Positions 5,899 through 35,295 of a DNA stretch of 47,500 nt are shown here, in pieces. Each line of letters opens with the position of its first letter. Position 1 is the stretch's first letter. Below the pieces are notes generated by a model. It did no database searches, was not told the DNA's origin, and was given only the letters and a program-made list of their open reading frames with translations. This DNA is from Halobacterium sp. KA-4 (lineage in GTDB: Archaea > Halobacteriota > Halobacteria > Halobacteriales > Halobacteriaceae): assembly GCF_021028995.1 (NCBI RefSeq), contig NZ_JAJJZG010000021.1, forward strand, positions 1 through 47,500. The letters are read 5' to 3'. Position numbers and translations under genes: made by a program.

Positions 5899-7536
5899 AT
5901 GCCAGGAATCGGACAGACAGTTAAAAATGCCATCTACGACGTTATTGGTGGGCTCGTCGAACCAGTCCGTGGATTCGTCAAGTGGTTATTCAGCCTCGCA
6001 GCGGACTACCTCACCAGCACCCCCTACCCCGATAATCTCTATTCATTTGGCAGCCCGACGAAGGATCCGTGGGCGACCCTCTTCCAGAACATATACAACG
6101 ACACCGTCATCCTCCTCCTACCGACGCTATTCGGGCTAGCGCTTGGGCTTGCGATGTTCTTCAACATTTTCACGCCTAAACAGAAGCAGACGAGCATACG
6201 CCGAGCTGTCTTCGCTTATCCGCTCGCCTATTCATGGTGGTGGTTTGGCGGTTGGTTCCTCAAATTCAACAACGACCTCGCAGACGTCATTCTCGGAGGT
6301 GCAGCAGACCAATTTGCATCAGCAATCACCGGATCTGCCACTTCTGCAGCCGGCACAGGTATCGTCGCCCTGCTTATCTATATCGCTGGTTCAAGCGTCC
6401 TACTGGTAGTTATTGCTGTTTTCCTACTCCGGCGAGTCGGCATCTACGCCTATATGGTCGCGATGCCCATTCTGTTGATGTTCTGGATTGTCCCCATCAA
6501 GCCCGTCGAGGGATGGGCAAAGAGCATGATGGGGAAATTCATCCCACTCGTCTTAATGACCCTCCCGACCGCCTTACTACTCCGAATTGGCGCATTACTC
6601 CTCCAAGGCAACGGAGGGGCCGCTGCCACAGGAACCGGCGGAATTGGGGCAGGGATGACGTCAACAGTTCTTGGATTCGCGACGATTGCGGGTGCAGCGC
6701 TGGTTCCGAAGTACGTGTTTTCGTTCTCGTCGCAGGTGTCCCGGGCTGTCCGAACGGGGTCGCGGGCAGGCCATGGGGTGTCTCGTGGGGTGCGAGCATC
6801 AGGGGCAAGCGCAGCGGCGGCGAGTGGTGGCGGCGCGCCACAGGCTTCGGATACCAGAAGTGGCGGTAGCCGTAGTGGCGGAACGTCGAGCGCGTCGAGC
6901 GAAGAACACAAGCACGACCCGAAGACGGACTTCTCGTCGTCGCGACGGATGCGGTCGCAACGACGTCGTCGTCAGCAGCGTGCCGAACGCATCGGATCAG
7001 GTGCCCGGAAGGCCGGTCGAAAAGCTGTTGACGGGACTGCACGCGCCTCAAAGAGCGTGCTACGGAACAAGCGTGCAGACGGATCGACGGCACGCGGTGT
7101 GGCTGGGGACGCGAAAAACGCAGCGAAAGGCGGAATGAGTGGATATCGGCAACGGATTAACGAACGAATGGCCGTTCGGAGCGAACAAGTCAAAGAGAAG
7201 TTCACTCCCGGAGACAACTCCGGTGGGAACGCCCCGACACAGACGTCTATCGACGATTATGACGATGGACGTGGGGAACCACCTGGATTTGAGGACCCCT
7301 CACAAACTGGCCTCGAGGAGTATGAGGACTCAGCCGGCAACGAGGGTCCGGGGACAACGACAGATGCCGGTCCTGACGTCGAGGACGAGAGAGCGGGCGG
7401 GAGGGATACCGAGATCAACAGCTCGCCGCGAGAGTTTGGGTCGCCGTCGACGAACAGGACGCCCGATGAAACCGAACAAATAGACGAAACCGGGTCGTTC
7501 TCTCAGAGCACAAATCGCCAAGAGAGCGACGACTAG
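5899..7536 (+). CDS. VirB6/TrbL-like polytopic membrane protein
   Basis: 545 residues. About residues 70-270 hold six or more membrane helices. Residues 290-545 form a long polar tail, first rich in Arg/Ser/Ala/Gly (RSQRRRRQQR) and then acidic. A multi-pass core with a long hydrophilic tail is the layout of VirB6/TrbL-type inner-membrane channel components of type IV secretion. Haloarchaeal plasmids carry similar genes beside VirB4-like ATPases. No ATPase is present in this window, so the assignment is by architecture only. The ATG at 5899 follows an AT-rich stretch (5860-5895) likely to hold the promoter. Confidence 0.6.
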   Translation: MPGIGQTVKNAIYDVIGGLVEPVRGFVKWLFSLAADYLTSTPYPDNLYSFGSPTKDPWATLFQNIYNDTVILLLPTLFGLALGLAMFFNIFTPKQKQTSIRRAVFAYPLAYSWWWFGGWFLKFNNDLADVILGGAADQFASAITGSATSAAGTGIVALLIYIAGSSVLLVVIAVFLLRRVGIYAYMVAMPILLMFWIVPIKPVEGWAKSMMGKFIPLVLMTLPTALLLRIGALLLQGNGGAAATGTGGIGAGMTSTVLGFATIAGAALVPKYVFSFSSQVSRAVRTGSRAGHGVSRGVRASGASAAAASGGGAPQASDTRSGGSRSGGTSSASSEEHKHDPKTDFSSSRRMRSQRRRRQQRAERIGSGARKAGRKAVDGTARASKSVLRNKRADGSTARGVAGDAKNAAKGGMSGYRQRINERMAVRSEQVKEKFTPGDNSGGNAPTQTSIDDYDDGRGEPPGFEDPSQTGLEEYEDSAGNEGPGTTTDAGPDVEDERAGGRDTEINSSPREFGSPSTNRTPDETEQIDETGSFSQSTNRQESDD

Positions 7537-9709: not shown

Positions 9710-10786
9710 GTGAACCAAGTGACCGCAAATTGGGACTCCCTGACCGTAAGCCGTAATGTCTCTCCCCCTGACTTGCCGATGAAAATGCCGGAAACACTAG
9801 TTTTCGAAATGCAGAACCTCTACATTCCGGAGGACGAAGTGTACGTAAGCGAGGCGTTTCCGATACGCATCGAGCCAGTCGAAGGTGTTGAGGAGTTCGA
9901 GAATAACCGGCGGGAGGAGGACAGCAAGTACCGGACAGGGTACTGGTTGACTGCGAAGTGTTTTATTGAGGCGGACGAGGAGCGGGCGAAGGAGTTGGCC
10001 GAGTGGGTAACATACGTCTACTCGTTTTATCAGAACCGGGACGTTCGGTGGGAAACGTACTATCCAGAAGGTTCATCGGAGGAAGCCTGCAACCTAGACA
10101 CGTATCGAATCCCCGTTGACAACACCGGCCTTCGGTTCGTACACGCCGTTCACGAGACAGGGCCAGTGTTCAACTCCAACATCGGCAAGTTGGTGGACGT
10201 AGCGCTGACGACAATTGACGAGGCCGATGAGGATTTAGCGACCGATCTCCGCACGAACATCTCGCTGTTCCTGCACTCTGAGGCGACGAAGCTGATGACA
10301 CCGAAGTTTCTGCTGTTGTGGCTGGTACTGGAGGCGAACGCGGACAGAAATTATCACCGGTATATGAAGAGCCAGCGCGAATACCTGTTTGACGAGGATG
10401 AGAAGGAGCGCGTCCGTGAGTACGTGTTGGACGAGTTTGAGGACGAGTTCACTAAGGGGCAGTTGAACCGGCTGGAGTACAATCTCGGGAAGGACTTCAT
10501 CTTCGAACCGAGCACTCTAGTGAAGATCAAGAAGTACGCCGAGCAAATCGACTTGGGGTTCGACTCGGACGAGGTGGAGGAGATAGTGGAGGAAGCGAGG
10601 GACATTAGGAATCAGATCGTGCATTCGATGGACGAATCGGGGCTTCGGGAGAACACCGATATTCTGGTGGACTTGAGGAAGATGGTGATGTTCCTGATAA
10701 TGCGGGAGTTGGGCGTGAAGCCTGAGTGGCAGGACAGGTTGGCTACGCCGAACATTTTTGGCCCAGATAGCGAGCACGAGTGGTGA
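9710..10786 (+). CDS. HEPN-motif protein, ApeA-like
   Basis: 358 residues from GTG 9710 (other in-frame starts: GTG 9719, ATG 9779). About residues 25-190 are mixed alpha/beta; about 195-350 are helical and contain ARDIRNQIVHSMDESG, in which R300-x4-H305 matches the HEPN RNase signature R-x4-6-H. A beta-rich N-terminal region followed by a C-terminal HEPN domain is how ApeA-type anti-phage proteins are built. HEPN domains often act as RNases in abortive defence or toxin-antitoxin systems. There is no adjacent antitoxin gene. The general HEPN call is reasonable; the ApeA link and the defence role are inferred. Confidence 0.6.
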   Translation: MNQVTANWDSLTVSRNVSPPDLPMKMPETLVFEMQNLYIPEDEVYVSEAFPIRIEPVEGVEEFENNRREEDSKYRTGYWLTAKCFIEADEERAKELAEWVTYVYSFYQNRDVRWETYYPEGSSEEACNLDTYRIPVDNTGLRFVHAVHETGPVFNSNIGKLVDVALTTIDEADEDLATDLRTNISLFLHSEATKLMTPKFLLLWLVLEANADRNYHRYMKSQREYLFDEDEKERVREYVLDEFEDEFTKGQLNRLEYNLGKDFIFEPSTLVKIKKYAEQIDLGFDSDEVEEIVEEARDIRNQIVHSMDESGLRENTDILVDLRKMVMFLIMRELGVKPEWQDRLATPNIFGPDSEHEW

Positions 10787-11030: not shown

Positions 11031-11474
11031 CTACTCGTCGCGAAGTCCGTCCGTATCCCCCTCAATACCGCGTGCGTCCTTGATATACTCCACGAGCACG
11101 TCCGAATTGTCCATCACCATCTGGAGCATCGCGTCGTGTTTCTCGGACGTCGTGACGTCCTTCACGCCGTCTTGGACGAGTGCCGGCGTCACTTCCACGT
11201 CGTCCACGGTATTCCACTCGTCAAGTGTCGCTTCCCGCACGTAGAACGGGAACTGCGTTGCTTCATCCCCGAACTCGAACGCCTTCGTCGTGTACGGGTC
11301 CGTTTCCTCGTTCGCTACCTGTTCCCCGGTCATCGGTTCATCCGTGCCATCATCACTGGTAGTTTCCTCGGTCGCTGCCGTCAATGTCGACGCGGTCGTG
11401 GTTGATTCACTGTCGGCATCGTCGGCGTCCTGGTCCTCGATTGTCTCGTCGAGGTCGTCGAACGGATCACTCAT
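11031..11474 (-). CDS. Acidic partner protein of ParA
   Basis: 147 residues. The N-terminal half (1-60) is very acidic and Thr/Ser-rich and probably unstructured. The C-terminal half (QFPFYVREATLDEWNTVDDV, then EKHDAMLQMVMDNSDVLVEY) looks folded and helical. The start ATG 11474 overlaps the end of parA by 8 nt, so translation is coupled. A small gene directly downstream of parA usually encodes the centromere-binding or adaptor protein of the partition system. The sequence has no recognisable HTH or ParB motif, so the role as adaptor rests on position. Confidence 0.7.
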   Translation of the reverse strand: MSDPFDDLDETIEDQDADDADSESTTTASTLTAATEETTSDDGTDEPMTGEQVANEETDPYTTKAFEFGDEATQFPFYVREATLDEWNTVDDVEVTPALVQDGVKDVTTSEKHDAMLQMVMDNSDVLVEYIKDARGIEGDTDGLRDE

Positions 11475-12369
11475 CGCGGATCACCTCACCACGTTCGACA
11501 ATCTGCGCGAGCTCGTCGTACGCTGCCAGTTGGTCACACTCGGGGTCGTAGTCGCGCAGCGGCTCGTTGGCGTCCCGCAGCGAGTTATTGATGGCGTCCC
11601 GGTGGCGGATGCCCGGCAAGCCACCGTCGTAGTCGCCGGCTTCGATAGCCTCCCAGTCCTCTGGAGAGATATATGCGAAGTTCGGGACCTTCGATGCCAC
11701 ACCGTCCCGCGTAGTAATCTCCTTGAGAAGTTCTTGGTCGAGCGTTGCTTGGTCGATACGCCGCTGGAGGTCGGACGGCACGACCGCGAGAATGTCGAGG
11801 TCGAAGTACCGGCGCGCTGGCTTCACAAGCCGGTTGACCGTGTTGTCGAGGCCAGTCTTGTAGCCGAGTTCCGGTCGCAGCGGGATGATGAGGTTGCCGG
11901 TGGCGTACATCGCGTTGTCGTTGAGTTTTCCCCGATTCGCCGGGCAGTCAACGACAATATAGTCGTAGTCCTCACCGAGAAGCGGTTCGACAAGATGCTG
12001 CTTGAGGCGAGCAGAGCCCTGTACAGCGTCTTTGAGCGTGGATTCGACACCTTCCAAGTCCGCGTGGGACGGGAACAGGTCAAGGCCGCCAGCGACGTCG
12101 ACGATGTAGTCACGGGGGTCGGCCTCGTTGACGAGGACCGCTTCGGCGTGGTTCTCGTCGTCATCCCCGGAGCCGTGCTGGTAGGCATCACGTTGCCCGA
12201 GGTTGAGTGTCAGGTGGCCGTTGTCATCGAGGTCGATGAGTAGGGCGGTTTCGTTGCGGTGTGCGAGCTCGCGCGCGAGGTTGAGCGCGGTTGTCGTTTT
12301 CCCGAATCCGCCTTTCAGGATGCCTACGCACACTGCTCGCGGGGTTTTGTCGGTATCGCTTTGTGCCAT
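11467..12369 (-). CDS. parA: ParA-family partition ATPase
   Basis: 300 residues from ATG 12369. The deviant Walker A motif KGGFGKTT (residues 19-26, with the signature Lys19) follows a short polar N-terminus. LLIDLDDNGHLTLNLG and DYIVVDCPANRG are the Walker A' and B regions. ParA ATPases segregate low-copy replicons by cycling on and off the nucleoid. A TTG at 12429 would lengthen the protein by 20 residues, but it starts inside the 9-bp repeat array. The ATG at 12369 has a GGTGAGG motif about 8 nt upstream. Together with the gene at 11031 and the repeats at 12421-12580 it makes a complete-looking partition locus. Confidence 0.9.
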   Translation of the reverse strand: MAQSDTDKTPRAVCVGILKGGFGKTTTALNLARELAHRNETALLIDLDDNGHLTLNLGQRDAYQHGSGDDDENHAEAVLVNEADPRDYIVDVAGGLDLFPSHADLEGVESTLKDAVQGSARLKQHLVEPLLGEDYDYIVVDCPANRGKLNDNAMYATGNLIIPLRPELGYKTGLDNTVNRLVKPARRYFDLDILAVVPSDLQRRIDQATLDQELLKEITTRDGVASKVPNFAYISPEDWEAIEAGDYDGGLPGIRHRDAINNSLRDANEPLRDYDPECDQLAAYDELAQIVERGEVIRDE

Positions 12370-12420
12370 ATTGGTTTCCTCACCGGATACAACAGTAGAC
12401 AACTCCTTTAACTTTTCCAA

Positions 12421-12580
12421 AGTAGTCAAAGTAGATGGAGTAGGTAGAATAGACAGAGTAGATAGAGTAGACAGAGTAGAAATGGGACTATATCGCCTAA
12501 TAGCCCACAGTAGCCATCTGCTGTAAAGTAGATGGGGTAGATAGAGTAGACGGCTACTTTAGAGTAGATAGAATAGATGG
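12421..12580. repeat. 9-bp tandem repeats upstream of parA, probable centromere (parS-like)
   Basis: Two blocks of direct repeats with 9-bp spacing and consensus AGTAGAYRG. Block 1 (12421-12483) has seven units: AGTAGTCAA, AGTAGATGG, AGTAGGTAG, AATAGACAG, AGTAGATAG, AGTAGACAG, AGTAGAAAT. Block 2 (12527-12580) has six, of which the fourth (CTACTTTAG, 12554-12562) is degenerate and resembles an inverted unit. The 43 bases between them include TATATCGCC. Position just upstream of parA suggests both centromere and operator for autoregulation. Confidence 0.8.
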
Positions 12581-12970
12581 GAGAGTCGGAGAAGATGGAG
12601 GAGGAACAGGGGGAGCGGGAGTCGTACTGCAGGGGGACGTCGAGCGGAGATCGGCTGCTCGAACTGGATTGAGAAGCGCGAAATCCGGTTCAGGGGCGAG
12701 GTGGAACGCCAGAATGGGCCCGCACTCAGCACCAATCTGGGAATCGTATTGTTACCCGGTCGAGCTACCGGTTTATGGACACGACACGCGTCGAGGGAGG
12801 AGCTATGTTCAGGGGCCTTGAATCAGAACAGCGTAGCAGTAGTTGAGACTGATTCTCTTAATGCATATGGTGTGAGCTATCTAAGGATCATCAAGCGTTG
12901 CTAAATCTATTTGAGTTCAGTCGAGATGTTCTACTTGCTAACGCTGTTGGCTGTTACCGTAGATCTCGCG
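12581..12970. other. Stretch without a gene
   Basis: 390 bases between the partition repeats and the lipoprotein gene, whose stop is at 12971. I see no convincing coding frame. A weak relative of the dispersed repeat (TTCAGTCGAGATGTTCTACT, then TGCTAACGCTGTTG) lies at about 12916-12950. A replication origin could be here, but no known origin box is recognised. Confidence 0.4.
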
Positions 12971-19473: not shown

Positions 19474-21393
19474 TCAGTGGCGAAGCAGTCGCATCCCGTT
19501 GAGGATGACCGCGAGGACGCTGGCCTCGTGGACCAACATTCCCGCGGCGAGGGTGACGTAGCTGGTGAGCACGCCCGCGAGCAGGACGGTCACGGTCAGC
19601 ACTGCGAGCCCGACGTTCTCGAGGACGTTCCAGCGCGTCGCCTTGCTGAGTTTGACCGCGTAGGGGATGCGGTCGAGGTCGTCGGCCATCAACGCCATGT
19701 CTGCCGTTTCGATGGCGGTGTCCGTCCCGGCGGCACCCATCGCGATGCCAACGTCGGCGGTCGCCAGCGACGGCGCGTCGTTGATGCCGTCGCCGACCAT
19801 CGCGACCACGTGGCCGTCGGCTTGGTAGGCCTCGATGACTGTCTGCTTGTCCTCGGGGAGGAGTTCGGCGCGGTACTCGTCGATGCCGACCTCCTCGGCG
19901 ACGGCGGCGGCCGTCCGCTCGTTGTCGCCGGTGAGCATCACCGTCTCGATGCCGACGTCCTGAAGCGCCGTGACGACCCCAGGAGCTGCCTTCCGGAGCT
20001 CGTCCCGCAGCGCGATTGCGCCGATGATGTCCCCGTCCCGGACGACGTGGACGACAGTTTCGCCGCGCTCCTCACGCTCGCGGACGTAGTCGGCGATCCG
20101 ACTGGGGACGTTAATGTCGCGGTCCTCCAGCAGTGCGCGATTGCCGACAACAACTTCGGTGCCCTCGGTATGGGCGATAACGCCCTTACCAGCGACCACG
20201 TCGAAATCGTCCGGACCGGGAATCGACTGAAGGCTGGCGTCCGTCTCGTCCGCCTGGGCGACCGCCGCCCCACCGTCCGTCGCAGCAGTCGGGCGCTCGC
20301 GGGCTGCGTCAACGATGGCGTCAGCGAGGTGGTGTTCGCTCTTCTTCTCGGCGGTTGCCGCGAGCGAGAGGACTTCGTCATCGGCGACGCCGAATCCCTC
20401 GACGTCGGCGACGGTGGTTTCGCCCTTCGTGAGGGTGCCGGTCTTGTCGAAGGCGACGAGGTCGATCTTGCCGGCGCGTTCGAGGTGTTCGCCGCCCTTC
20501 ATCAGCACGCCCGATCGGGCGGCGTTGCCGATGGCCGAGACGATGCTGACTGGCGGCCCGATCACCAGCGCGCCCGGACAGCCGATGACCAACAGCGTCA
20601 ACGACAGGATCGCGTTCTGCGTGACTGCATATGCGCCGATGGCCAGCACGATGACGGCCGGCGTGTAGTACTTCGCGAACCGGTCGATGAGACTCTCCGT
20701 GGGCGACTGGGCCTCTTGGGCCTCCTCGACGCGACGGATGATACGTTCGAGCGTCGTGTCCGAGCCCGCACCCGTCGTCCGGATTTCTAGCGCGCCCTCC
20801 TGGTTGACCGTCCCGGCGTAGACTTCGTCGCCGTCGGCCTTGTGGACGGGGGCGCTCTCGCCGGTGACCGGCGCCTGGTTGACGGCGCTTTCGCCGTCGA
20901 CGACCTCGCCATCGACCGGAATCTTCCCGCCCGGCCTCACGACGACGACCTCGCCCTCTTCGACTTCCCGGGCGGGAACCTCTTGGAGTTCCCCGTCGCG
21001 ACGGACGGTCGCCGTGTCGGGCGTCATCTCCAGGAGCTCCTGGAGGGCCGTCCGGGTCTTCCGCATGGTCCGGCCCTCGAGGTAGCTGCCGAGGCTGAAC
21101 AGGAAGACGACGGCGGCAGCCTCCCAGTACTCCCCGATGACGATGGCCCCGATAGCGGCCAGCGTCACCAGCGTCTTGATGCCGAGTGTCCGGTTCGTGA
21201 CCTCGTGGTAGGCGGTCTTGGCGATGTCGTAGCCACCCACGATCGTCGCGAGGACGAGGATGGCGGCGCTTGCCATCTCGAAACTCGTGAGGTAGCCCAG
21301 ACTCCAGCCACCGCCGTACAGCAGGCCGCTCGTCGCCGTGACGATGGCCTTCCGGTGTTTCCGGTAGTACTGCGTGATCGATTGAATGTTCAT
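19474..21393 (-). CDS. P1B-type heavy-metal ATPase with unusual CPG motif
   Basis: 639 residues from ATG 21393; an upstream extension is shadow coding. It shows the P-type core: TGES (177-180), the membrane metal-site motif in helix 6 (C272-P273-G274), the phosphorylation site DKTGTLTKGE (D316), MLTGDNERT, and GDGINDAPSLATADVGIAMG. There is no N-terminal HMA domain; a separate HMA gene sits upstream. The last helix carries LVHEAS, and overall similarity is closest to Zn/Cd/Pb pumps (ZntA/CadA type), which usually have CPC. Also, the usual SEHP is SEHH (352-355). It should export a divalent metal from the cytoplasm, with specificity uncertain because of the changed motif. Confidence 0.85.
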   Translation of the reverse strand: MNIQSITQYYRKHRKAIVTATSGLLYGGGWSLGYLTSFEMASAAILVLATIVGGYDIAKTAYHEVTNRTLGIKTLVTLAAIGAIVIGEYWEAAAVVFLFSLGSYLEGRTMRKTRTALQELLEMTPDTATVRRDGELQEVPAREVEEGEVVVVRPGGKIPVDGEVVDGESAVNQAPVTGESAPVHKADGDEVYAGTVNQEGALEIRTTGAGSDTTLERIIRRVEEAQEAQSPTESLIDRFAKYYTPAVIVLAIGAYAVTQNAILSLTLLVIGCPGALVIGPPVSIVSAIGNAARSGVLMKGGEHLERAGKIDLVAFDKTGTLTKGETTVADVEGFGVADDEVLSLAATAEKKSEHHLADAIVDAARERPTAATDGGAAVAQADETDASLQSIPGPDDFDVVAGKGVIAHTEGTEVVVGNRALLEDRDINVPSRIADYVREREERGETVVHVVRDGDIIGAIALRDELRKAAPGVVTALQDVGIETVMLTGDNERTAAAVAEEVGIDEYRAELLPEDKQTVIEAYQADGHVVAMVGDGINDAPSLATADVGIAMGAAGTDTAIETADMALMADDLDRIPYAVKLSKATRWNVLENVGLAVLTVTVLLAGVLTSYVTLAAGMLVHEASVLAVILNGMRLLRH

Positions 21394-21397
21394 GGTG

Positions 21398-21613
21398 TTA
21401 GGCTGGTTGGGGCGTGTACCCCTGGTTTTCGATGGTCTGTGCGAAGGCGTCGGGATCAGCGACGCTGTCGTCATATTCGATCTCGACGCGGCCGGTCGCG
21501 TAGTGAACCTCGACGTGCTGGACACCGTCGACGTTCGATAGGGCGCGTTCGACGGTGCTCGCACAGGTCGGGCAGTCGAAGTCGAGGACGCGGAACTGGG
21601 TTGTGTCGCTCAT
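21398..21613 (-). CDS. HMA-domain metal chaperone
   Basis: 71 residues making one HMA fold. The metal-binding loop is DFDCPTCAST (Cys14, Cys17), an unusual form because the usual G-M-[TH]-C-x-x-C is D-x-D-C-P-T-C, with an acidic residue before the cysteine as seen in Zn-type HMA domains. The gene ends 4 nt before the start of the ATPase, so the two are co-translated. It likely delivers metal to, or acts as the detached N-terminal domain of, the pump. Confidence 0.85.
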   Translation of the reverse strand: MSDTTQFRVLDFDCPTCASTVERALSNVDGVQHVEVHYATGRVEIEYDDSVADPDAFAQTIENQGYTPQPA

Positions 21614-23577: not shown

Positions 23578-24963
23578 ATGGTAGCGACGATGATTGATGC
23601 CATCTCCGAAGCTCTACGTATCGGAGTGGGCTTCCTCTGGACGGCAGCGTGGGCGATCATCATGGGCCTCACGATCACGAGCCTCGTCCAAGTCTACGTC
23701 TCCAAGGAGCGGATGGCGCAGGTCCTCGGCGATGGCGATCTGAGCGGGCTCACCAAGGCGACTGCGTTCGGCGCGGCCAGTAGTGGCTGTAGTTTCGGCG
23801 CCGTCGCCATCGGGAAGGGGTTGTTCAAGAAGGGGGCGCACGCGGTGAACTTCCTCGCGTTCATGTTCGCGTCGACGAACCTCATCGTCGAACTCGGGTT
23901 GATGATCCTGATTCTGCTGGGGTGGGAGTTCCTCGTCGCAGAGTTACTTGGCGGCCTCATCCTCATCGCCGTGATGGCGGTCATCGTTCATCTCACGCTT
24001 CCGGAGAACCTCTTCGATGAGGTGCGAGAGACGCTCAACGAGCGCGATCACGAGGCGGGCGTCACCGAGGATCCAACTTGCGGGATGGAAGGCAAAGACG
24101 AGTACACGCTTACGACTGACGGCGGTGAGACGCTCAAGTTCTGCTCGGAGGGGTGTATGGAGACTTACCGCCAGGAGATGTCGAGTCGCGGTGGGTGGCG
24201 TGACGAGTTGCTGTCGTGGGGTGGCTGGTACAAAGTCGGGAATCAGTACCGCAAGGAGTGGTCGATGATCTGGAAGGACATCGTCGCTGGCTTCCTCATC
24301 TCGGGGTTCGTCATCGTCTTCGTCCCGCAGTGGGTGTGGAACACGCTGTTCATTCAGGGCGACGGCCTGCTCGTGACCGCCGAGAACGCAATTATGGGTG
24401 TCACCATAGCCGTCCTCAGTTTCGTTGGCAGTATGGGCAACGTCCCGTTCGCCGTCGCGCTGTGGGGCGGTGGCGTCAGCTTCGCCGGGATCATCGCGTT
24501 CGTCTACGCTGACCTCATCACGATTCCCGTGCTGAACGTCTACCGGAAGTACTACGGCTGGAAGATCATGCTGTACATCCTCGGCGTCTTTTTCGTGACG
24601 ATGGCGTTCACTGGCTTCCTCATGGAGCTGCTGTTCGACGCGCTGGGAATCGTTCCGGATCTGGCGGGCGGCGAGACGGCGACGGAGCAGACGTACTTCA
24701 AACTCAACTACACGTTCTATCTCAACCTCATCGCGTTCGCGCTCTCCGGGTTCCTGCTGTATGTTTATCGTCGCGGTCTCGGTGCGCCCGGCCAGTACCG
24801 CGACCCCGTCTGTGGGATGCGGACTGACGACAGCGAGCCATCGGCGACGCACGACGGCGAGACGTACTACTTCTGCTCGCAGACCTGCAAGGAGACCTTC
24901 GGGGAAAACCCGGACGAATACGCCACCGGGCATCCGATGGTGATGGAGGGGCACGACCACTGA
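23578..24963 (+). CDS. Permease (DUF318/YraQ-like) with two YHS domains
   Basis: 461 residues. Two membrane blocks (about 12-140 and 232-400) contain the permease motif SSGCSFGAVAIGKGLFKKGA and a second half with SMGNVPFAVALW. Two YHS metal-binding domains are present: about 165-200 (C168, C189, C193; DPTCGME and KFCSEGC) and about 409-450 (C412, C433, C437; DPVCGMR and YFCSQTC). The permease family is suspected of metal or metalloid transport, and YHS domains bind Cu/Zn-type ions. It has a homologue at 27875-29209 with only one YHS domain. Function as a metal exporter is probable but unproven. Confidence 0.8.
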   Translation: MVATMIDAISEALRIGVGFLWTAAWAIIMGLTITSLVQVYVSKERMAQVLGDGDLSGLTKATAFGAASSGCSFGAVAIGKGLFKKGAHAVNFLAFMFASTNLIVELGLMILILLGWEFLVAELLGGLILIAVMAVIVHLTLPENLFDEVRETLNERDHEAGVTEDPTCGMEGKDEYTLTTDGGETLKFCSEGCMETYRQEMSSRGGWRDELLSWGGWYKVGNQYRKEWSMIWKDIVAGFLISGFVIVFVPQWVWNTLFIQGDGLLVTAENAIMGVTIAVLSFVGSMGNVPFAVALWGGGVSFAGIIAFVYADLITIPVLNVYRKYYGWKIMLYILGVFFVTMAFTGFLMELLFDALGIVPDLAGGETATEQTYFKLNYTFYLNLIAFALSGFLLYVYRRGLGAPGQYRDPVCGMRTDDSEPSATHDGETYYFCSQTCKETFGENPDEYATGHPMVMEGHDH

Positions 24964-27874: not shown

Positions 27875-29209
27875 TCAGTTCATCATCGTCGCGTGGTCTT
27901 CACTACTGCGTTCCCCGCCGCCGACTGAATCCTGATTGTGGAGCCAGTAGAGGAACAGGAAGAACACAGTCGCGAGGACGTTCAATACGAGCTTGTAGTT
28001 GAGTTCGATGGATACCTCGGCAGCCTCGGCGGCAGCCCGCGAGGGGATGAGGCCGACGCTCAGGAAGAGGAAGTGAATCACGAACCCGACGATGACTGCA
28101 GCGACGAAGATCATCAGAGACAGAACCGCCGCGAACGTCGTTCCGTAGTACTCGTCGTAGGCTTTCATGATCGGGGGGACGATGAGGTCAGCGAAGATGT
28201 ACGAGAGCACCGATCCGAATGGCAGCCCCCGTGTCCAGAGAACGGTGCCGAACGGGACATTCCCGACCGAACAGACGAAGGTGACGACACCAATAATCGC
28301 CCCCAGCGCAGCCGTCCAGAGGACGTACACCGGCAAGCCGAACGTGGCTCCGGAAAAGACGCTCGTCCAGACTGATTCGGGGATGAACCCGGCAATGAGG
28401 CCGGCGAAGATGAACCCGATAGCGATTTCATCCCACAACATCGCCCATTCTTTCCACTGTTTGTCCGCGAGCGACTTCCACCCCGACCATGAGGTCGCCT
28501 TCTCCGGGATAGAGGTGTTCGCCGCTTCCGGGTCGAAGGAGTCCTTGCAGGACTGTGAACAGAAGTAGTACGTCTGGCCATCGTGTTCGATGGAGTAGTC
28601 CGTCTCCTCGGGATCGACGTCCATCCCACAGACGGGGTCCTGTACGGTGATCCCCTCGTCGTCGGTGACATTCTCGCGTGCTTCGTCGAGAATCTTGTCG
28701 GGAACGACGTAGACGAAGCCGACCGACATCAGGCCGATGAGGAGCAGCCCACCGATGATGTCGGCAAGCAGGAACTCCCAGCCGAGCAGCAGCCAGATGA
28801 CGATCCCGATCTCGATGACGAGATTCGTTGAGGCGAACTGGAACGCTGCTAGCGCCGCCGCCGCGGACGCTCCCTTCTTGTAGAGGTTCTTTGCCGTAGC
28901 GATAGCTGAGTACGAACACGACGAGGAGACGAACCCGAAGAACGTAGCGACGCCGAGCGATCGCGGACCGTGGCCTTCGAGCAGCTCCGAGATCTGCTGG
29001 GTCGATACCCACGCCTCAACGCCGCCGGCGATAGCGAACCCGAGGACGAGCGCCCACCAGGTGATCCACGCCATCGCGGCGGTCGTTGTCGCGGCCTGCC
29101 GCGCGCTCTCCGCGAAGAACGTCCCGAGGGATTGGTTGGTCGTCACGAGGCCGATGGTGACAGTGATTACGGCGATGACCGTGAGGATCGCGTAATCTGA
29201 TCTGTCCAT
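27875..29209 (-). CDS. Permease (DUF318/YraQ-like) with one YHS domain
   Basis: 444 residues. The first membrane block (about 8-170) has SSSCSYSAIATAKNLYKKGA; a YHS domain follows at about 189-226 (C194, C217, C221: DPVCGMD and YFCSQSC); the second block (about 250-430) has SVGNVPFGTVLWTRGLPFGS. It is homologous to the product of 23578-24963 but has a longer N-terminal helix and no second YHS domain at the end. Both probably transport a metal ion or metalloid, with the cytoplasmic YHS as a metal sensor or acceptor. Transport substrate unknown. Confidence 0.8.
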   Translation of the reverse strand: MDRSDYAILTVIAVITVTIGLVTTNQSLGTFFAESARQAATTTAAMAWITWWALVLGFAIAGGVEAWVSTQQISELLEGHGPRSLGVATFFGFVSSSCSYSAIATAKNLYKKGASAAAALAAFQFASTNLVIEIGIVIWLLLGWEFLLADIIGGLLLIGLMSVGFVYVVPDKILDEARENVTDDEGITVQDPVCGMDVDPEETDYSIEHDGQTYYFCSQSCKDSFDPEAANTSIPEKATSWSGWKSLADKQWKEWAMLWDEIAIGFIFAGLIAGFIPESVWTSVFSGATFGLPVYVLWTAALGAIIGVVTFVCSVGNVPFGTVLWTRGLPFGSVLSYIFADLIVPPIMKAYDEYYGTTFAAVLSLMIFVAAVIVGFVIHFLFLSVGLIPSRAAAEAAEVSIELNYKLVLNVLATVFFLFLYWLHNQDSVGGGERSSEDHATMMN

Positions 29210-33012: not shown

Positions 33013-35295
33013 ATGGACGACCACAAAGATACAGCTAAGAATTCCCAGGGCGGAGAGGACCAGCAGGACACCACCAGTCACCAGCACGAACACGGCGACC
33101 ACGATGAAGCGGTCGCGGAATCTGACGAGGAAGGGGTAGAACAGGAGCTACTAGAGGAGGAGGCTCACCCTGCTGCGGCAGGTGAGATGGCGTCCCACGA
33201 ACAGCACGAACACGCCGGCCACGAGGGCGACGGGCACGGCCACGGTTCCCACGAGGGACACGGCGAGGGCCATGGCGGGATGCACGAAGGCCACGAGCAG
33301 ATGTTCCGGCGACGCTTCTTCGTCTCGACACTCCTGTCGGTTCCCGTCCTCCTGTACAGCGAAATGCTGCAGGAGTGGCTCGGCTTCTCCGTCCCCACGT
33401 TCCCGGGGAGCGAGTGGATCAACCCGGTGTTCGCCGTCATCGTCTTCGCGTACGGTGGGGTCCCGTTCCTCCAGATGGCGGTGCCGGAGCTGAAAGACCG
33501 GTCGCCGGGGATGATGACGTTGATCTCGATGGCGATCACCGTCGCGTTCGTCTACAGTCTCGCGAGCGTGGTCTTCCCGACGCAGTCTGCGTTTTTCTGG
33601 GAACTCGTCACGCTGATCGACATCATGCTGCTGGGCCACTGGATCGAGATGCGGTCGGTCCGGCGGGCCTCCAGCGCGGTCGACGAACTGGCGAAACTGA
33701 TGCCAGACACCGCCGAGCGTATTACCGACGACGGAGAAACCGAGGAGGTTCCCGTCAGGGAGCTCTCGGAAGGCGATCTCGTGCTCGTCCGGCCGGGCGC
33801 AAGTGTCCCTGCTGACGGCACCGTCGAGGAAGGTGATTCGGACGTCAACGAGTCGATGATCACTGGCGAGTCCAAGCCCGTCTCGAAGGAGCCTGGCGAC
33901 GAGGTCATCGGCGGCACCATCAACGGCGATGGTAGTCTCCGCGTCCGTGTTGGCGCGACGGGCGAGGAGACGACGCTGGCGGGCATCATGCGTCTCGTCG
34001 AGGAAGCCCAGCAGAGCAAGTCCAAGACGCAGGTACTGGCCGACCGGGCGGCAGGCTGGCTGTTCTACGTCGCGCTCGGGGCGGCAGTCGTGACGGCGAT
34101 TGCGTGGACCGTCGCGGTCTCGTTCGACGCGACCGTCATCGAGCGAGTCGTGACGGTGCTCGTCATCGCCTGCCCGCACGCCCTCGGGCTCGCCATTCCG
34201 CTGGTCGTCGCGATCAACACGTCGCTCGCCGCTCGCAACGGGATGCTCGTTCGCGACCGCATCGCGATGGAAGACGCACGGAATCTGGACGCGATCATCT
34301 TCGACAAGACAGGGACGCTTACCGAGGGCGAACACGGCGTCGTGGATATGGCGACCGTCAACGGCGTCGACGAGGACGACGCGCTCGGGCTGGCGGCAGC
34401 CGTCGAGAGCGACTCCGAGCACATGATCGCGCGAGCGATTCGCGAGGCCGCCGACGAGCGAGACCTAACTACTCCCGACGCGACCGCCTTCGAGGCGATC
34501 AAAGGCCGAGGGGTTCGCGCGAACGTCGACGGAAACGAGGTGTACGTCGGTGGGCCGAACCTGTTGACCCAGCTCGATAGCGAGATCCCCGACCATCTCC
34601 AGCGCTTCGCTGACGAGGCCGGACAGAACGCCCAGACAGTGGTGTATCTCGTTCGTGACGGAGAGCTAATTGCCGCCTTCGCGATGGCCGACGTGATCCG
34701 CGAGGAGAGTTTCCGCGTCGTCGACGCGCTCCACGATCTGGGTATCGAGGTGGCGATGCTGACGGGGGACTCCCAGGACGTCGCCAACGCCGTCGCCGAC
34801 GAACTGGGCATCGACACGGTGTTCGCGGAGGTCCTCCCCGAAGACAAAGACGAGAAAGTACAGGAACTCCAGGACCAGGGCAAGCTCGTGGGGATGGTCG
34901 GCGATGGTGTGAACGACGCGCCGGCGCTGACGCGAGCCGACGTCGGCATTGCGATCGGGAGCGGCACCGACGTTGCGGTCCAGTCGGCCGACGTCATCCT
35001 CGTCCAGAACAACCCGATGGACGTCGCCCGGCTGGTGAAGCTCAGTAAGGCGAGCTACCGGAAGATGCAGGAGAACATCGTCTGGGCGGCCGGCTACAAC
35101 GTGTTCGCGATTCCGCTTGCAGCAGGCGTGTTGGCACCGGTCGGGATTCTGCTGTCTCCCGCCGTGGGCGCGCTCCTGATGTCACTGAGTACGGTCATCG
35201 TTGCCATCAACGCTCAGCTGCTCCGCCGCGTGGACTTGTCCATTCCCGAGCTTCCGGGCGGGACACCAGCGACTGACGCACAACCTGCAGACTGA
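33013..35295 (+). CDS. CopB-type copper P1B-ATPase (CPH motif)
   Basis: 760 residues. Residues 1-95 are extremely His/Gly/Glu-rich ([20 protein letters not shown]) and replace an HMA domain as metal-binding region. The core carries TGES (284-287), CPH (387-389, in [11 protein letters not shown]), DKTGT (D431), MLTGDSQDV and [23 protein letters not shown] with a His-rich N-terminus is the mark of P1B-3 (CopB) pumps, which export Cu. The usual SEHP is SEHM (468-471). The divergent TRASH regulator and CopZ-like gene complete the circuit. Confidence 0.9.

Follow-up and report, generated by a model that had tools for sequence, protein, structure and literature searches.

In the delta-omega partition system of plasmid pSM19035, a ribbon-helix-helix (RHH) ParB activates ParA when bound to contiguous heptads, of which at least four are needed, with several heptad orientations having been tested (PMC9499535). 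Like the locus described below, this system joins a small ParA to a small partner (PMC4498918) and uses contiguous short repeats of mixed orientation (PMC9499535). The stb operon of plasmid R388 offers a second likeness, as direct repeats of a 9-bp unit, grouped in two sets, lie around the operon promoter and are bound by the operon product StbA, and the operon includes a ParA-like gene (PMC3098194). Among archaea, SegAB of Sulfolobus and AspA-ParB-ParA of pNOB8 are likewise ParA-type systems with DNA-binding partners, and the 2016 review that covers them names the characteristics of archaeal centromeres as an outstanding question (PMC5120986).

Here we analysed a stretch of 47,500 nucleotides from Halobacterium sp. 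KA-4 (hereafter the window), in which a 9-bp repeat array lies next to parA and the gene of a small protein, termed the adaptor (Table 1). The locus departs from each of these systems. In pSM19035 the units measure 7 bp, compared with 9 bp here, and omega is a known RHH protein, whereas the adaptor has no family match; the repeat sequence also varies widely within the haloarchaeal family, unlike in pSM19035. The R388 stbDRs form two sets of five with units two nucleotides apart, and the StbB ATPase is reported to be dispensable for stability (PMC3098194), whereas in pNOB8 AspA is a winged helix-turn-helix (HTH) protein with a 23-bp site and a third component is present (PMC5120986). The open-access literature, searched by title and abstract opening, yielded no description of 9-bp arrays beside haloarchaeal parA. 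Judging from sequence comparison, we consider that the array is the candidate centromere of a ParA plasmid partition system, probably serving as its operator too, and that the adaptor is the predicted centromere-binding protein, reading the array through a short segment of its C-terminal domain, a reading to which we assign a probability of about 85%. The set of parA, adaptor and array would then represent a widespread and apparently undescribed variant of the ParA partition system.

Table 1. Coordinates of the parA-adaptor-array locus in the window
Feature	Position	Strand	Description
adaptor, proposed centromere-binding protein	11031..11474	-	147 aa; overlaps parA by 8 nt
codons for adaptor residues 74-81 (QFPFYVRE)	11232..11255	-	putative DNA-reading strand; strand nature inferred
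parA	11467..12369	-	300-aa Walker-type ATPase; P-loop KGGFGKT; Pfam PF13614 E 6.9e-29
outlying in-phase unit AGTAGACAA	12394..12402	+	between block 1 and parA
array block 1	12421..12483	+	seven contiguous 9-bp units, AGTAGAYRG type
spacer between blocks	12484..12508	.	25 bp
array block 2	12509..12580	+	eight 9-bp slots, single register; slots 12518, 12554 without sense match
outlying degenerate in-phase unit AGAAGATGG	12590..12598	+	

The window parA encodes a deviant Walker-A ATPase of the ParA family and shares an operon with its partner gene through the 8-nt overlap, as in type I (ParA) systems. Counted from the ATG at 12369, ~18 residues precede the P-loop and there is no N-terminal DNA-binding domain, which corresponds to type Ib. 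This ATG is common to the annotated pNRC200 gene, and a TTG at 12429 falls inside the array. The PDB chains closest to ParA are named ParA family protein, cobyrinic acid a,c-diamide synthase and Soj. The adaptor comprises an N-terminal FDDL motif, an acidic linker of low model confidence and a C-terminal domain (approximately residues 64-135) containing the invariant Y78. The closest named relatives of the pair are found on Halobacterium plasmids such as pNRC200, where VNG_RS11095-VNG_RS11100 is a direct homologue with a ParA 93% identical and an adaptor 70-72% identical to those of the window. The array is retained there (lag-9 count of 13), with an alignment gap of 17 columns corresponding to about two extra units in pNRC200, and DNA past the array aligns poorly by eye. 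The pNRC200 pair is annotated merely as 'ParA family protein' and 'hypothetical protein', and the latter name is given to the adaptor in all 15 annotated records among 16 plasmid records (L054 carries no annotation).

The original prediction placed thirteen 9-bp units upstream of parA, and these were recovered, seven at 12421-12483 and six at 12527-12580. The 43 bases said to separate them exist (12484-12526), but slots 12509, which reads AGTAGCCAT with 2 mismatches, and 12518 fit the register of block 2, giving 7 + 8 slots and a 25-bp spacer. The register of block 2 is itself 2 bp off that of block 1 (34 instead of 36), and single in-phase units lie outside the blocks at 12394 (AGTAGACAA, 27 bp from block 1) and 12590 (AGAAGATGG). 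The array thus counts 17 slots over ~200 bp. Where a single inverted unit had been claimed, we found two, AGCAGATGG on the opposite strand at 12514-12522 (1 mismatch) and AGTAGCCGT at 12550-12558 (2 mismatches), which are 36 bp apart within block 2 and each straddle two slots. TRF detects the array with a score of 67 at a 9-bp period and of 78 at a 27-bp period. Over the 500 bp that precede parA, there are 17 occurrences of identical 5-mers at lag 9, against 0.7 ± 1.2 in Markov shuffles, none of 200 reaching 17. Across the whole genome AGTAGAYAGAGTAGA has 13 matches at up to two mismatches, nine of them within the array and four single ones elsewhere; because the reversed pattern, used as a control, also matches 15 times (a count without positions), it is the clustering of these matches and not their number that is informative. 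At up to one mismatch, 26 unit matches occur elsewhere in the window on both strands, compared with 12 at the array, on a single strand over 260 bp. In the 380 bp ending 30 bp inside parA, 13 of the 24 inverted 5-mer pairs no more than 60 bp apart fall in one phase.

Loci related to that of the window were assembled in two sets. The first, obtained by ParA similarity, comprises 25 genome loci and 16 plasmid loci, the latter picked among the best 40 of at least 5000 matches, and some of the two kinds are possibly the same plasmids. The adaptor gene directly follows parA in 41 of these 41 loci. Pooled over the window and the 41 loci, 5-mer repeats upstream of parA number 338, 355, 235 and 196 at lags 9, 18, 27 and 36, compared with 9-59 at other lags. 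On lag 9 alone, the count observed in 30 of the 42 upstream regions was equalled or exceeded by no more than 3 of 200 shuffles, and 12 are not significant (L016, L018, L025, L026, L027, L029, L033, L034, L035, L050, L052 and L056), five of which (L016, L025, L029, L033 and L056) peak at 18, 27 or 36. The signal lies in the 400 bp immediately preceding parA. In six control regions of ~40 loci each, located further upstream, inside parA and downstream, lag 9 gives 47-81 counts, against 46-68 at other multiples of three and ~30 at the remaining lags, whereas the upstream region gives 329 against 23. The control counts thus reflect codon periodicity, lag 9 being at most mildly above the other multiples of three in some regions (81 vs 57.5, 68 vs 48.1 and 69 vs 53.9).

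A profile of the adaptors recovered relatives in 200 of 391 sampled genomes of the class, and in 38 of 392 genomes of a phylum-wide sample, all 38 belonging to one same order. The second set, drawn from the class search, consists of 49 loci, of which 29 were best matches and 20 were weaker listed ones picked blind to their repeats, and it may share species or records with the first set. Its pooled counts at lags 9, 18, 27 and 36 are 352, 354, 186 and 138, with 14-50 at other lags; for lags 9, 18 and 27 combined, 39 of the 49 loci individually reach p<0.02 against 100 shuffles and 10 fail. The unit itself changes by clade: read on the parA strand, it is CTACTCTRN in the window, ATTCGTACG in Haladaptatus litoreus, GTACAATNG in Halorussus aquaticus, TAGCTA-based in a Halorubrum and TTAGGTAAG in Halorientalis. 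The 9-bp phase is conserved and the repeat sequence is not. By eye, the array seemingly continues into the parA 5' end in L038-L040 and at host C12:4341 (L071), encoding an N-S-rich extension, so that centromere and coding sequence may overlap in these loci. A single scan of viral contigs with the window adaptor as query, the reach of which is close relatives, gave no match. In the halovirus ChaoS9, the 3' end of a ParA gene (genes 255-260) is overlapped by a gene described as uncharacterised and also found in phiH1 (PMC6471424), which may be a like pair.

The array might instead be a mere operator for repression of the operon by one of its own products, the adaptor or ParA, with the centromere lying elsewhere or being absent. 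Its location directly upstream of parA fits this explanation, as does the promoter-like sequence AAAGTTAAAGG that it flanks, seen by eye on the minus strand between the 12394 unit and block 1, and in many systems the partition binding protein doubles as a repressor. However, 17 slots over ~200 bp, together with a signal reaching to -400 in relatives, are in our judgement beyond the need of a simple operator; the repeats seem by eye to enter the parA coding region in L038-L040 and host C12; and the genome holds no second array of the window sequence, just the four single matches. Although it survives better than the other alternatives, we regard this explanation as unlikely.

Several such systems coexist in the host genome. 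Its 15 ParA-family matches include five with an adaptor (C10, C13, which is the window, C12, C5 and C26), each having its own ParA and 9-bp array; the C5 array was recognised by eye and that of C10 peaks at lag 18. The five arrays are nearly disjoint in their spectra, with pairwise cosines of 0.00-0.22. None of the other ten host ParA-family genes has lags 9 and 18 both above counts of 3 and 2, respectively; two of them reach counts of 5 and 7 at lag 9 with no lag-18 signal, and another has an 8-bp array.

The co-variation of repeat and protein was evaluated in 94 of 95 loci with a usable ParA and adaptor, L036 being dropped as the script found no ParA there. A tyrosine is invariant in 94 of the 94 adaptors, and the segment from -5 to +2 around it was chosen from the alignment before the column scan, yet after the table had been sorted by it. 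Once the remaining domain columns are controlled for, identity within this segment predicts array similarity with a partial r of 0.461 (35 representatives), and of 0.474, 0.541 and 0.430 under other settings (51, 32 and 27 representatives), phylogeny being controlled in part only in these statistics. No label permutation out of 2000 reached the observed value in any of the four settings, and the best 7-column window outside the segment attains 0.23-0.30. Columns -4, +1 and -2 rank first, second and third in all four settings, the signal at -4 resting on few exceptions because Gln occupies this column in 30 of the 35 representatives. When ParA identity is also controlled, the segment retains partial r values of 0.432 and 0.446, compared with 0.209 and 0.232 for ParA given the adaptor. 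The best 7-column windows of ParA reach 0.34 and 0.37, so that the co-variation may reflect linkage without contact. An alignment with three truncated rows gave a weaker co-variation (0.168, 44 of 2000), and a rough pairwise comparison showed the same trend. Within ParA, the stretch around AVQGSAR (P0001) tracks the repeats best (partial r 0.34-0.37) and is possibly an adaptor-facing surface. A conserved phase combined with a repeat sequence that drifts along with an adaptor segment is what would be expected of a centromere and its binding protein. The original prediction of a candidate centromere bound by the adaptor is partly supported, in silico, by the family-wide link of the two, the retained 9-bp phase and the drift that follows the adaptor segment.

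These data also bear on a reading of the repeats as iterons of a replication origin to which an initiator binds, parA being close by because plasmid modules cluster. Repeats are common near replication genes, in pNRC200 parA follows the end of orc1 by ~0.7 kb, and L049 has an orc1/cdc6-type gene ~0.7 kb past the adaptor. The array nevertheless accompanies parA and the adaptor despite quite different neighbours, its sequence follows the adaptor, it is present in two of three tested loci on contigs >3 Mb (L111 and L119 but not L123), and no recognised initiator was found among the 28 window ORFs scanned of 167 listed, so that we consider iterons very improbable. A functionless tandem duplication or low-complexity DNA, for which the generation of short tandem repeats by slippage and the purine-rich unit could be invoked, is scarcely credible: dozens of loci share the period at this position although their unit sequences differ, and nine of the ten other host ParA-family genes have no such array beside them, the tenth having an 8-bp one.

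If the adaptor is the centromere-binding protein, its fold becomes relevant. The protein has no Pfam, NCBIfam or PDB family, its best PDB match being a proteasome chain at E 0.023; a weak match to a PHROG of unknown function appeared in 2 of 32 adaptor members (2.2e-4). No RHH family occurs among Pfam and NCBIfam matches of these 32 members up to E 1, and profile alignment (hhalign) with 20 haloarchaeal PF01402 (RHH_1) proteins gave a probability of 0.3%; the register of the RHH_1 alignments is suggestive and is not counted as evidence. No ParB or HTH domain was present among the adaptor family and PDB matches, and no SegB among 7 and 7 PDB-chain profile matches up to E 10, in a PDB set in which the presence of SegB is unconfirmed. 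The statement that the adaptor has no visible HTH accordingly held in the Pfam, NCBIfam and PDB searches.

In the AlphaFold2 model the first half of the adaptor is of low confidence, and helices span residues 81-101, 109-122 and 124-135, the first being longer than is usual in RHH proteins. Residues 66-80 are non-helical, without an assigned strand in the single chain, and have pLDDT values of 65-80 over 71-80. The alternation of columns -4 and -2 fits a strand, and segment 74-81 is a putative strand of the kind present in RHH proteins. Structure library searches with the full-length model returned nothing useful, presumably because half of the chain is of low confidence, and the C-terminal domain alone had no Foldseek match in the PDB. 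RHH proteins have a strand, placed in the major groove, ahead of two helices. With its non-helical segment ahead of three helices the model recalls the proposed RHH-like binder, but no strand is assigned and no sequence or fold search linked the domain to RHH proteins; the adaptor may work like an RHH centromere binder and is not classed as an RHH protein. Similarly, the proposed new kind of centromere-binding protein is borne out as a new sequence family, whose fold class may be new or RHH. In a dyad test of 94 loci the top phase bin held 0.36, compared with 0.25 in shuffles, a difference that does not speak for a dimer, since periodicity of any kind in an array would have the same effect.

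A sister family with 8-bp arrays was also detected. In the host genome, C12:43676-44988 (L001, L074 and L144) carries a ParA with TGAATCAN-like 8-bp repeats and a different small acidic partner, which was matched in 103 of 292 genomes, although weak matches may arise by chance via the acidic tail. The sister relatives are numbered L145-L193. An 8-bp phase is present in 29 of 30 close sister loci, which are not independent because they are 71-100% identical to the query, and the pooled counts at lags 8, 16, 24 and 32 are 361, 239, 209 and 233. Of 20 further sister loci fetched, one was too short; among the 19 used, four (63-66% identical) have an 8-bp phase, 14 have strong 9-bp arrays and one has neither, the 14 being ~30% identical to the query and near-identical among themselves. 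Profile comparison of the two adaptor families aligned 59 columns, including the invariant Tyr, with a probability of 86% and an E of 5e-6 calculated for one comparison, compared with a probability of 0.1-0.3% for ParA controls; the adaptor against the 9-bp sister subgroup alone gave 12%, and a smaller alignment of the two families 19 and 47%. Against 20 haloarchaeal RHH_1 proteins the sister family reached a probability of 3-5%, which leaves that homology unsupported. Homology of the two adaptor families is probable on these profiles. Tentatively, and at somewhat less than even odds, they might belong to a haloarchaeal centromere-binding superfamily of an undescribed fold class with a three- or four-residue strand code, in which few changes would create a new incompatibility group, and a subfamily's change of period from 9 to 8 bp would shift the pitch of the nucleoprotein helix with the rest kept.

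Under the preferred reading, with the array as centromere, the C-terminal domain of the adaptor, presumably as a dimer, would set a short strand (Q74-x-P76-F-Y78-V79) on every 9-bp unit, and dimers side by side on contiguous units would form a helical protein coat. A 9-bp step on 10.5-bp DNA corresponds to a rotation of ~50 degrees per unit, so that by geometry, not data, the coat would wind round the helix. By analogy with pSM19035, the acidic FDDL tail may contact nucleoid-bound ParA and stimulate its ATPase, and through this trigger the plasmid would track ParA over host DNA. Because the strand would determine which repeat is read, plasmids could carry different, mutually blind arrays and coexist, several per cell. 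We infer that the adaptor binds DNA, dimerises and contacts ParA through its tail, and likewise that the system acts in partition and incompatibility.

The surroundings of the locus are varied. An Apea-like HEPN domain protein (PF18739, E 6e-7) is encoded at 9710-10786 (+), and HEPN-type domains often occur in defence genes. A TrbL/VirB6-like protein (PF19590, E 4e-14) at 5899-7536 (+) suggests the presence of transfer genes on the element. A cargo probably devoted to metal handling, located at 19474-21564, 23578-24963, 27875-29209 and 33013-35295, comprises two E1-E2 (P-type) ATPases together with two YHS-domain permeases of the ArsP type. No tRNA is present in the window.

For roughly half of the sampled genomes of the class (200 of 391), among them that of the laboratory strain Halobacterium salinarum NRC-1, the parA-adaptor-array set supplies a predicted centromere and a protein that would bind it, and it would permit naming of genes now called 'hypothetical protein'. 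Within a single genome, five different pairs occur, each predicted to ignore the other four, which would offer naturally occurring data from which to derive a protein-DNA recognition code and could help explain the coexistence of several large haloarchaeal plasmids.
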